A stretch of 64,000 nt of DNA from Bacterioplanoides sp. SCSIO 12839. Its GTDB lineage: Bacteria; Pseudomonadota; Gammaproteobacteria; Pseudomonadales; Oceanobacteraceae. The translations under genes were made by a program, and so were the position numbers. Shown here piece by piece: positions 281 to 12,837 of this stretch. Position 1 is the first letter of the stretch; each line of letters opens with the position of its first letter. The notes beneath the pieces were generated by a model that had not been told where the DNA came from, did no database searches, and worked only from the letters and a program-made list of their open reading frames with translations. The stretch is from assembly GCF_024397975.1 (NCBI RefSeq), contig NZ_CP073745.1, forward strand, positions 358,501 to 422,500, read 5' to 3'.

Positions 281-365
281 AATCTGTTTCGAGAGCAGCA
301 ACAGGATGTTGCGTCCGCCCGGCAGGCACAGGGATGTGCCTTCGGGGCGGTGGCAGAAACAGATT
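281..365 (+). repeat. Structured dispersed intergenic repeat, copy A
   Basis: One of three related elements (others at 3141-3224 and 12682-12786). Closing arms AATCTGTTTC (281-290) and GAAACAGATT (356-365) are perfectly complementary and differ in sequence from the arms of the other copies. Inside are hairpin 1 (298-312, arms GCAACA/TGTTGC, loop GGA), a middle stem (315-320 CCGCCC with 345-350 GGGCGG), and hairpin 2 (325-340, arms GGCACA/TGTGCC, loop GGGA). The shared linkers GGCA and TTCG are unchanged in all copies. Confidence 0.85.
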
Positions 366-2719: not shown

Positions 2720-3121
2720 ATGCGCCAGAAGATGACCCGTTCTCTCATAAAAATTGCTTTAGTTTTAATCGCTTATATTGTCTCAGCGTGTACTCAGGTG
2801 CCAGTAAAGCAGGGGCAACCTGAATGGCTGCTGAACCCGGGGAATGGTGTTGTGGCGTCTTGTGGTTTCCACATCAAAGGACACTATGCACAGCAGGAGT
2901 GTGCGATCCAGCGTGCCCGTGAGCGATTGGCGGCCCGCCAGGGCGTCGAGGTGAGCAGTGTGTCGCAGCTAACCACCCGGGTACACAATGACCGGGAGAG
3001 TGTGACGCTGAACAAGGAAACACGGGAGAAGGTTAATCAAGTGACGGTTAAAGCAAGGGTCAGGGAAAGCTGGTATGACGCTCAGCGAGATGAATATTAT
3101 GTCTGGGTGTTTGCCGAATAA
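2720..3121 (+). CDS. Small LPP20-like lipoprotein
   Basis: A 133-residue protein with a signal sequence ending in VSAC (lipobox Cys near residue 24). The mature part has PEWLLNPG, a conserved-looking GxHIKGHYAQQ turn, an ARERLAARQG helix and a C-terminal SWYDAQRDEYYVWV strand. The order of a PEW motif, an Ala/Arg helix and a terminal YVW strand parallels the larger lipoprotein encoded divergently at 2030-2611, so the two may act together at the outer membrane. Function is unknown. The two genes share a 108 bp promoter region. The gene is followed by structured repeat copy B. Confidence 0.65.
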   Translation: MRQKMTRSLIKIALVLIAYIVSACTQVPVKQGQPEWLLNPGNGVVASCGFHIKGHYAQQECAIQRARERLAARQGVEVSSVSQLTTRVHNDRESVTLNKETREKVNQVTVKARVRESWYDAQRDEYYVWVFAE

Positions 3122-3140
3122 CTCAGACACCAATGAGCAT

Positions 3141-3224
3141 ATTAACGTTTAGCCGCCGCGCCGAAGGGCCATCCCTGGCCCTGCCGCGCTACCGAGGCAT
3201 CCTGCCTCTGCTTTAAACGTTAAT
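3141..3224 (-). repeat. Structured dispersed intergenic repeat, copy B
   Basis: Same element as copies A and C, here inverted. The closing arms ATTAACGTTTA (3141-3151) and TAAACGTTAAT (3214-3224) are perfect complements. On the minus strand hairpin 1 is GAGGCA-GGA-TGCCTC (3194-3208) and hairpin 2 is GGGCCA-GGGA-TGGCCC (3166-3181). Both stems differ from copy A but keep pairing. It lies between convergent genes. Confidence 0.85.
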
Positions 3225-3255
3225 ATCCCCATCGGCACTCATGTTCCATAAAGGA

Positions 3256-9972: not shown

Positions 9973-12636
9973 ATGACAAAAAAGTCAAAGCCTTCTCAAG
10001 CCTCCCAGGGCTTTAAAGACCCAAATGCCGCCGTCGAAGCGCAACGCTACGACAACCCGGTTGCCAGCCGTGATGCACTGCTGATGCTGCTGGAACAGCA
10101 GGGTCATCCAATGACACATTCCGATGTGTGTGCCGCATTAGGCGAAACCGATGAAGAGCGGGTTGAAGCCCTGCGTCGTCGTTTGATTGCGATGTCGCGT
10201 GACGGCCAGCTGATCTCCAACCGTCGTAATCAGTTTATGCCAATGAGCAAAGCGGATTTAGTGACGGGTATGGTGATGGGCCACCGTGATGGTTTTGGCT
10301 TTGTGCTGCGTGACGGTGGCGACGATGTGTATCTGTCGAATCGTCAGATGGGCAAGGTGTTTCACGGTGACAAAGTGGCGGTGCAGATTCTTGGCTTAGA
10401 TCGTCGTGGTCGCCCGGAAGGCAAAGTTGTTGAAGTGCTGGAGCGTAATACCCAGCAGATTGTTGGTCGTTATTTTGACCAGGCCGGTGTTGGTGTCGTA
10501 CAGCCAGATAACAAGCGCGTCAGCCATGAAATTTTAGTGCCTCCGGCAGGTAGAAACAAAGCTGAACACGGTCAGTTTGTGGTGGTTCAGATCACCCAAC
10601 AACCACGTCCGGGTGCCTTACCCATGGGTGAGGTGATTGAAGTGTTAGGCGAACATTTAGCGCCGGGCATGGAAATCGACGTAGCCATTCGCAGCCATAA
10701 TATTCCGGCGGAATGGCCAGAAGAAGTGGTGACCGAGGCGGAAAAATTACCGGAGCAAGTCAAAGCTGCGGATAAGAAAAATCGCATCGATTTACGTCAT
10801 CTGCCGTTTGTCACTATTGATGGTGAAGACGCGCGCGACTTCGATGACGCGGTTTATTGCGAGCCGAATAAAAACACCGGTGGTTGGCGTTTATTCGTGG
10901 CCATCGCAGACGTATCACACTACGTCAAAGTGAAATCAGCCTTAGATGATCACGCTTATGAGCGTGGTAATTCGGTGTATTTCCCGGGCTTTGTTGTGCC
11001 CATGTTGCCGGAAAAATTATCCAACGGTTTATGTTCATTAAATCCGGAAGTGGATCGTCTGGTGATGGTGTGTGAAATCACTATTTCGGCGGCCGGTAAA
11101 TTATCCGGCTACAAATTTATGGAAGGCCTGATTCATTCCCATGCACGGTTAACTTATAACAAAGTGTGGGGCATGTTGCAGAAGCCATTAACCGAAGATG
11201 GCAAAGCCTGGCGCAAGCATTATCGTCCGATTGTTCCGCATTTAGAAAATCTTTATAAGCTGTTTAAGCTGCTGCGCAAAACCCGTGAACAACGCGGTGC
11301 AATGGATTTCGATTCGGTCGAAACCCGCATCGTATTCGACGCCGAGCGTAAGATTCAGGAAATTGTGCCAACCGAGCGTAACGACGCTCACATGCTGATT
11401 GAAGAGTGTATGTTGGCGGCCAACGTGTGTGCGGCCGATTTCTTCCAGCGTTACGATATCCCGGCATTATTTCGGGTGCACAAAGGCCCGAGTCAGGAGA
11501 AGCTGGAAAATTTATACAGCTTCCTCGGCGAGTTAGGTTTGTCGCTGCATAAAGGCAAAGAAGTTTCGCCAAAAGATTATCAGGCGTTGTTGAAACAAAT
11601 TGAAGACCGTCCGGATTCACATTTAATTCAAACGGTATTATTACGCTCATTATCTCAAGCGGTTTATGATCCGGAAAACGAAGGCCACTTTGGTTTAGCC
11701 TATAAAGCCTATACGCATTTCACATCGCCGATTCGTCGTTACCCGGATTTATTGGTACATCGTGGTATTCGTCATGTGATTCGCAGCGAGATTGAATGTC
11801 GCCATGTGCGCCGTGTGGAAGACGCCAAACCGATGCAGAAATGGCGGATTTATCCATACGACACGGCGCGTATGATCAGCCTGGGTGAGCATTGCTCCAT
11901 CACCGAGCGTCGTGCTGACGATGCCACCCGCGATGTGATGGATTTCCTCAAGTGTGAATATATTCGCGATCATATTGGTGGTGAATACGAAGGTGTCATT
12001 TCTGCCGTCACCGGTTTTGGATTATTCGTCGAATTAAAAGATATTTATGTGGAAGGTCTGGTGCATATTTCCACGCTGCAAAACGATTATTACCAGTTTG
12101 ATGCGGTAAAACATCGGTTAGTGGGTGAACGCACCCGTCGTAGTTTCCGCTTAGGCGATAAGCTTTGGGTTCGCGTGGTGGATGTTGATCTGGATGATCG
12201 TAAAATCGACTTTGAATTAACCACTGCACCTATGAATAAAAACCGCCGGAGTGCGGCTGACCTGCCGACCCCGACACGGTTACCGCGTAGACGTGGTGCT
12301 GAGGGAGAAACTGAGGAGCTATTGCCTGGTAAAAAAGAGCCTGGTAAGAAAGATTCGGGTAATAAATCAGGTTCAAAACCACGCCGCTCACAGCGTGACA
12401 GCTTTAAAAAAGCACAGGCGGATAAAACTTCAGGTCGTCGTGCGGCGAATGACTCGGATGACGATGGCAAGCGTTCTGCGAAAAAGCCGGCGGCGAAAAA
12501 AAGCGCCAGCAAAAAGCCAAGCAAGCGTCAGAAGCTGAATGCTAAAAAAGCCGGTGCCAGCACCAAAGCTAAAACGGCTAAATCAAAGCCAAAAAGTGGC
12601 AAAAAGACGGCTCGTAAGCCCCTCAAGAAAAAGTAG
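9973..12636 (+). CDS. rnr: Ribonuclease R
   Basis: RNase R, a processive 3'-5' exoribonuclease that degrades structured RNA, 887 residues. An N-terminal winged-helix region (about 30-85) is followed by cold-shock OB domains (about 90-260). The RNB catalytic domain has the metal-binding motif DGEDARDFDDAV near residues 281-292, and the S1 domain (about 671-750) reads EGVISAVTGFGLFVEL. The last 120 residues are a Lys/Ala/Ser-rich basic tail (KKPAAKKSASKK and so on) typical of the family, probably binding RNA or ribosomes. An AGGA site precedes the ATG. Downstream lie structured repeat copy C and rlmB. Confidence 0.96.
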   Translation: MTKKSKPSQASQGFKDPNAAVEAQRYDNPVASRDALLMLLEQQGHPMTHSDVCAALGETDEERVEALRRRLIAMSRDGQLISNRRNQFMPMSKADLVTGMVMGHRDGFGFVLRDGGDDVYLSNRQMGKVFHGDKVAVQILGLDRRGRPEGKVVEVLERNTQQIVGRYFDQAGVGVVQPDNKRVSHEILVPPAGRNKAEHGQFVVVQITQQPRPGALPMGEVIEVLGEHLAPGMEIDVAIRSHNIPAEWPEEVVTEAEKLPEQVKAADKKNRIDLRHLPFVTIDGEDARDFDDAVYCEPNKNTGGWRLFVAIADVSHYVKVKSALDDHAYERGNSVYFPGFVVPMLPEKLSNGLCSLNPEVDRLVMVCEITISAAGKLSGYKFMEGLIHSHARLTYNKVWGMLQKPLTEDGKAWRKHYRPIVPHLENLYKLFKLLRKTREQRGAMDFDSVETRIVFDAERKIQEIVPTERNDAHMLIEECMLAANVCAADFFQRYDIPALFRVHKGPSQEKLENLYSFLGELGLSLHKGKEVSPKDYQALLKQIEDRPDSHLIQTVLLRSLSQAVYDPENEGHFGLAYKAYTHFTSPIRRYPDLLVHRGIRHVIRSEIECRHVRRVEDAKPMQKWRIYPYDTARMISLGEHCSITERRADDATRDVMDFLKCEYIRDHIGGEYEGVISAVTGFGLFVELKDIYVEGLVHISTLQNDYYQFDAVKHRLVGERTRRSFRLGDKLWVRVVDVDLDDRKIDFELTTAPMNKNRRSAADLPTPTRLPRRRGAEGETEELLPGKKEPGKKDSGNKSGSKPRRSQRDSFKKAQADKTSGRRAANDSDDDGKRSAKKPAAKKSASKKPSKRQKLNAKKAGASTKAKTAKSKPKSGKKTARKPLKKK

Positions 12637-12681
12637 TTCGTTTTAATTAACGAATTCAAAATAGCAGGGATCAAGTCGTAG

Positions 12682-12786
12682 AGAAGAAGTCAGTGTTTTT
12701 CAATAGCAGCAACAGGATGTTGCGGTAGCGCGGCAGGGCCAGGGATGGTCCTTCGGCGCGGCGGCTGAAAAATACTGGCTTTTTCT
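12682..12786 (+). repeat. Structured dispersed intergenic repeat, copy C
   Basis: Longest copy. The closing arms are CAGTGTTTTTCA (12691-12702) and TGAAAAATACTG (12766-12777), extended outward to about 21 bp with G-U pairs. It contains hairpin 1 GCAACA-GGA-TGTTGC, a middle stem GCGC (12728-12731)/GCGC (12756-12759), and hairpin 2 GGGCCA-GGGA-TGGTCC (12736-12751). It lies between rnr and rlmB, and a T-rich stretch follows the stem. Confidence 0.85.
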
Positions 12787-12837
12787 CGCTAAGAACAGAA
12801 TCAAGTTGGGCTATTGTTTGATAGCCGGAGAATTAAA

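Follow-up and report, generated by a model that had tools for sequence, protein, structure and literature searches.

About 85 intergenic TwoAYGGAY-type hairpins in one Bacterioplanoides genome likely work as scattered CsrA-binding RNA

Introduction

A repeat in the genome of Bacterioplanoides sp. SCSIO 12839 raises the question of what an intergenic hairpin does whose paired arms differ from site to site. The window analysed here (64,000 nucleotides of contig NZ_CP073745.1, positions 358,501 to 422,500) contains three copies, c1, c2 and c3, which the original prediction described as dispersed repeats that keep one RNA fold through compensatory changes. This observation is real and larger than first seen. 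The features of the three copies are as follows, in window positions (the hairpins of c2 and c3 are assigned from the sequence, and the c1 loop motifs are as in the available text of PMC7652899):

270..376, + strand: c1, whole hairpin (fold, and model match at 279–367), antisense to both neighbouring genes
298..312, + strand: c1 hairpin 1, GCAACAGGATGTTGC, with loop motif CAGGATG at 302–308; predicted CsrA site 1
324..341, + strand: c1 hairpin 2, AGGCACAGGGATGTGCCT, with loop motif CAGGGATG at 329–336; predicted CsrA site 2
3130..3235, − strand: c2, whole hairpin (fold, and model match at 3139–3226), flanked by convergent genes ending at 3121 (+) and 3256 (−)
3194..3208, − strand: c2 hairpin 1, GAGGCAGGATGCCTC on the minus strand; predicted CsrA site 1
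3166..3181, − strand: c2 hairpin 2, GGGCCAGGGATGGCCC on the minus strand; predicted CsrA site 2
12678..12789, + strand: c3, whole hairpin (fold, and model match at 12690–12778), sense; the preceding gene ends at 12636 (+) and the next starts at about 12840 (+)
12709..12723, + strand: c3 hairpin 1, GCAACAGGATGTTGC; predicted CsrA site 1
12735..12752, + strand: c3 hairpin 2, AGGGCCAGGGATGGTCCT; predicted CsrA site 2

All three copies lie where they had been placed, with scores of 101.9 (c1), 91.3 (c2) and 101.8 bits (c3) against a covariance model (R1) built from 30 copies, these three among them. Each folds better than 200 of 200 dinucleotide shuffles (z-scores −6.58, −7.68 and −7.16 for c1, c2 and c3), and the stem changes that had been listed between them are seen in the alignment.

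Copy number and family identity

The search of the genome and a relative with a covariance model, which had been proposed along with the prediction, yielded at least 88 matches with an E-value of 0.001 or better in the closed single-contig 3.9-Mb genome (150 of 1667 candidates scored), and the further copies keep the pairing; a DNA search alone found 42. The other genome of the genus that was searched (G001) has at least 38 matches (150 of 1549 candidates scored), and the model matched in 19 of 93 genomes drawn as relatives, the source genome included. The family amounts to about 85 copies in this genome, mostly just 3′ of genes. Counts of arms and gene context given below are based on 83 of the 88 matches (three without retrieved DNA and two under 37 bits were left out), counts of loops on 85 aligned model matches. 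The repeat is intergenic, as had been claimed: none of the 83 copies lies inside an open frame with at least 40 codons on both sides.

Neighbouring copies form inverted pairs, for example at contig positions 2241966 (−) with 2242079 (+) and 826402 (+) with 826521 (−); no direct pair within about 200 bp occurs among the matches listed. One copy (contig 3489052–3489157, −) is broken within hairpin 2 by sequence with two GGA hairpins, ATGCAGGATGCAT and GGTACATGGATGTACC, and another (1166885–1166999, −) has an extra GGA hairpin, three in total.

The element falls within the TwoAYGGAY type (RF01731) and is not a new family. RF01731 finds 38 matches in the genome down to an E-value of 10, with 16 over the gathering score of 43 bits, and 37 of the 38 coincide with element copies (the exception, at 490603–490735, has an E-value of 0.55). 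Within the window c2 reaches 42.0 bits, one bit below the gathering score, and c3 36.3 bits, so that both stay under it, and an Rfam scan of the window at gathering level found nothing; c1 has no RF01731 match, and an E-value Rfam scan of this copy gave an unrelated model as its best. In an order-wide search, which scored 9 candidates in each of 293 genomes, RF01731 matches at an E-value of 0.001 in 45 genomes and over the gathering score in 25, and none was found in G001. TwoAYGGAY was first obtained in a 2010 screen (PMC2864571). According to the available part of PMC4333381, its CsrA binding is predicted from motif matches, its outer stem is poorly conserved, and one of its stems has tandem GA pairs. 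The available parts of these two papers contain no mention that we found of a high copy number, and we found no description of such an expansion in the open-access literature on dispersed CsrA-binding repeats and on TwoAYGGAY/RF01731.

Pairing, strand and length of the stem

Selection on the structure of the hairpin element is supported by several kinds of data. In the 30-copy alignment 94.5% of the cells are paired, compared with 80.3 ± 0.9% in shuffles and 38–53% when partners are slid by 1–3 columns, and the covariation test suggested with the prediction gave 130 cells changed on both sides with pairing kept, far above the 42.3 ± 5.4 of the shuffles; the structure used for these statistics came from the same alignment, which favours it. 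The outer stem was assessed by aligning the flanks of 83 copies with Watson-Crick pairs alone scored, so that G·U and A·C count equally as mismatches. True arms had a median score of 15 (minimum 2), arms of different copies a median of 2 (maximum 11). Stem positions 12–26 comprise 972 Watson-Crick pairs, 111 G·U, 12 A·C and 74 other mismatches, the corresponding numbers in G001 being 344, 52, 5 and 32; in randomly combined arms G·U and A·C occur at similar rates. Counted from arm index 12 outward, the G·U to A·C ratio is 39:8 in sense, 44:10 in antisense and 16:1 in convergent copies. Because G·U exceeds A·C whatever the gene orientation, the plus strand of the element is the strand selected to fold; this strand is also the more stable one in 76 of 83 copies (median difference 9.7 kcal/mol). 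Split by bit score, which includes some inner stem pairs, the ratio is 40:0 at 95 bits or more and 12:8 below 70 bits, and the low-scoring copies, which we take to be old, look as if they were decaying. The original view of a structure under selection rather than a decaying repeat holds for the fold on one strand and seems to fail for these low-scoring copies.

Without gaps and with G·U counted, 80–100% of the cells pair to about position 25 from the 3′ GGC (77% at position 25 itself), and at position 28 pairing is no higher than in shuffled arms. Pairing ends sharply after about 22–24 bp, and the stem length is fixed. Wobble pairs are commonest at stem positions 9–10 and 16–22, and the outer pairs tend to have A in the 5′ arm and T in the 3′ arm. 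We also considered that the element inserts into existing terminator hairpins, the target supplying the arms, and dropped this reading because the stem length is fixed and the wobble pairs follow the strand of the element and not that of the gene.

The outer arms do not behave as a single ancestral arm altered one pair at a time among the copies of this genome: 13 pairs of copies with cores at least 95% alike have a median outer-arm identity of 0.54, the value for pairs with unlike cores being 0.50. Since arms at chance level accompany like cores, both arms seem to be swapped together as one complementary block, the best-supported reading of why the stem differs from copy to copy. We read the stem as one whose length and pairing matter and whose sequence, which differs from site to site, does not.

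Loops, CsrA and a CsrB-like RNA

The most constant columns among the 85 copies are the GGA loops with their closing C–G pair and, less strictly, AGCAG ahead of hairpin 1. The loop columns of hairpin 1, C-A-GGA-(T/C)-G, and of hairpin 2, C-A-N-GGA-(T/C)-G, are nearly invariant, and the pairs just beneath them vary. Loops and linkers had both been reported as constant; this is confirmed for the loops, whereas linkers and middle stem vary over the 85 copies. Both GGA are present in 76 of the 85 matches. Hairpin 1 reads CAGGA(T/C)G, and hence AGGA(T/C), in 67 of the 85, and hairpin 2 reads CANGGA(T/C)G in 75. Set beside the two AYGGAY loops of RF01731, hairpin 2 has A-N-GGA-(T/C) in most copies, with T at N in no more than about 4 of every 10. 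C follows GGA in 11 copies at one loop and 14 at the other, which breaks an A–U closing pair and is allowed in CsrB repeats. Among the 76 copies with both GGA the loops lie 24 to 42 nt apart, and in 67 of them the distance is 25 nt.

The available text of PMC7652899 gives CAGGA(U/A/C)G for the CsrB repeats and RUACARGGAUGU as the consensus from SELEX. Most of the hairpins selected there carry a loop of six bases that AC/GU closes, stems in most ligands have four or fewer pairs, and one CsrA dimer bridges sites 10–63 nt apart. Measured against what is available of this source, the element has the GGA in a hairpin loop that a CsrA site requires, as CAGGA(U/A/C)G or ACARGGAUGU (both GGA in 76 of 85 copies), its hairpin 2 has a six-base loop like the SELEX ligands, and the spacing of its two sites (24–42 nt in 76 copies) falls inside the bridging range.

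The genome encodes one CsrA (a single PF02599 match, 90.6 bits). Over residues 1–52 it has the same sequence as the chain in PDB entry 1vpz, which is a homolog of the carbon storage regulator. A CsrB-like RNA lies at contig positions 3499445–3499804 (+); it scores 33.3 bits against RF00018 (gathering score 71) and contains 22 GGA. Its strings CAGGACG (3 times), CAGGATG (2) and CATGGATG (2) are in common with the element loops, and at its 3′ end a T run comes after a GC-rich hairpin whose loop is CAGGACG. RF01731 and CsrB both belong to Rfam clan CL00106.

Gene context and orthologous sites

Called with a simple open-frame caller, the 83 copies comprise 31 in tandem sense, 30 in tandem antisense, 16 convergent, 4 divergent and 2 unclassified; among 30 copies of G001 there are 10 sense and 14 antisense. 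With sense and antisense about equally frequent, roughly one copy in three would be present as the wrong strand in the transcript of its neighbouring gene. A promoter belonging to the element was not found (mean best score 4.94, and 4.76 on the control side).

Of these 30 copies in G001, 26 lie at the site of a copy in the source genome, two match flanks without a counted copy there (one of them beside the broken copy at 3489052), and two have no flank match in the sequence pieces compared. Of the 26 orthologous sites, 14 agree in orientation and 12 have it reversed; a clean comparison leaves 9 same and 7 flipped, with 10 of the 26 excluded for a second copy beside them or an offset of at least 60 nt. 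The sites of c1 and c2 have other sequence in G001 and no model match, and the counterpart of c3 is in the opposite orientation. The seven flipped one-to-one pairs have core identities of 0.62–0.78, close to what unrelated pairs show as background (median 0.68, 90th percentile 0.80), and simple in-place inversion is therefore not supported. Loss of different members of an inverted pair is a possible explanation. Five well-aligned orthologous pairs are plainly inherited (identity at least 0.83), and most others are no more alike than unrelated copies. With flank folds counted in, 33 stem pairs have changed in these five, 15 still paired and 18 having lost pairing, a count that by itself does not show compensation.

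Proposed role and alternative explanations

Because the loops match CsrA sites, we propose that the roughly 85 hairpins likely act as scattered CsrA-binding RNA, each RNA copy predicted to be held by one CsrA dimer, and we put the probability of this reading at roughly 0.6. Loops, spacing, the CsrA of the genome and the CsrB-like RNA together probably point to CsrA capture. The element strand would be transcribed and bound by CsrA, one dimer would bridge both loops 25 nt apart, and either CsrA would thereby be titrated or RNA ends would be protected locally; the long stem may serve as a support holding up the two loops. The equal use of sense and antisense orientation is the main difficulty for this reading: transcription of the element strand may come from elsewhere, turnover of copies may outpace selection on orientation, or the strand may be read as DNA. 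It also counts against CsrA capture that hairpins 1 and 2 have longer stems than most SELEX ligands in the available text of PMC7652899, that the genome already has a CsrB-like sponge, that c1 is without an RF01731 match, and that there is neither a detected promoter of the element's own nor retained pairing in 18 of the 33 changed stem pairs of the five orthologous pairs.

More tentatively, and with rather low confidence, we picture a stem-swapping element that captures CsrA, with conserved sites behind genes that are rewritten there repeatedly in either orientation, a 22–24-bp stem exchanged as a matched complementary pair, and a genome that would form a distributed CsrA reservoir of some 170 sites.

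A folded element of single-stranded DNA, in particular a mobile palindrome of the REP/RAYT or IS200/IS605 kind whose loops serve a transposase and not CsrA, would account for dispersed copies near the 3′ ends of genes, in both orientations and in inverted neighbouring pairs. Also in its favour, strand-specific pairing persists even where the element is antisense to its genes, and G·T is the better-tolerated mismatch in DNA as well. We nevertheless regard such an element as unlikely. A search for the Y1 transposase (PF01797) had no matches in the genome and was positive in 5 of 14 control genomes, and no strand bias by replication arm is seen (the positively skewed half has 23 plus and 23 minus copies and the other half 20 and 17, skew being computed from the retrieved pieces of sequence). 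Moreover, copies with near-identical cores differ in their arms, unlike copies of a transposed end, and a transposase would not predict the CsrA loop consensus.

Rho-independent terminators with a conserved tip, which would end the transcript of the preceding gene, would fit with the position of copies soon after stop codons, with the few copies between divergent genes (4 of 83) and with the tendency of the outer pairs to have A in the 5′ arm and T in the 3′ arm. Yet a run of at least four T at the 3′ base is rare (4 of 31 sense, 6 of 30 antisense and 4 of 16 convergent copies; 14 of 77), G·U stays in excess on the element strand also in copies antisense to their neighbouring gene (44:10), and the stem length is fixed; we consider terminators slightly less likely than a mobile element. 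The least probable of these alternatives in our judgement is a structured 3′-UTR or stabiliser of RNA ends, that is an RNase barrier or RNase III substrate, with loops of little importance: the fixed stem of about two helical turns, the concentration of wobble pairs at positions 16–22 and the location after genes would suit it, but the columns that vary least are those of the loops, and from antisense copies the mRNA would receive the strand that folds less stably.

Comparison with known systems

For the Rfam family TwoAYGGAY, CsrA binding is so far a prediction, made in the available part of PMC4333381; about 85 copies and a CsrA of its own in one genome make the proposal testable. Should it be true, a dispersed family of repeats would add to the one or two sponge RNAs in titrating CsrA. 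Two settings that look unrelated, this genus and another genome of the order (G286), have stems constant in length and pairing and not in sequence, and they raise the separate question of how a bacterium rewrites both arms of a palindrome together.

Like RF01731, the element consists of two hairpins with GGA loops on a little-conserved outer stem. Unlike it, the loop of hairpin 1 is one base shorter in most copies (CAGGAYG), and about 85 copies occur in this one genome, each with its own stem sequence. The CsrA-sequestering RNAs of the CsrB/RsmB type (CL00106) have identical loop strings (CsrB of E. coli K-12 has CAGGATG 6 times), but CsrB is a single transcript with about 20 GGA, whereas the element offers two sites per copy over about 85 places. 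Long dispersed repeats bearing RF01731 in three genomes (G286, G077 and G003) likewise have the two-loop tip on a long stem; their copies share sequence beyond the stem, and nothing beyond the stem is shared here. The eight copies in G286 have two stem types, with arm identities between types of 0.48 and 0.55, and the core (0.86) and outer flanks (0.85 and 0.97) are common to both. In G003 the RF01731-like hairpins lie within longer repeats that form head-to-tail arrays of about 311 and 330 bp. REP/RAYT systems resemble the element as extragenic palindromes near 3′ ends and differ from it in that the stems here are site-specific and the genome is without a Y1 transposase.
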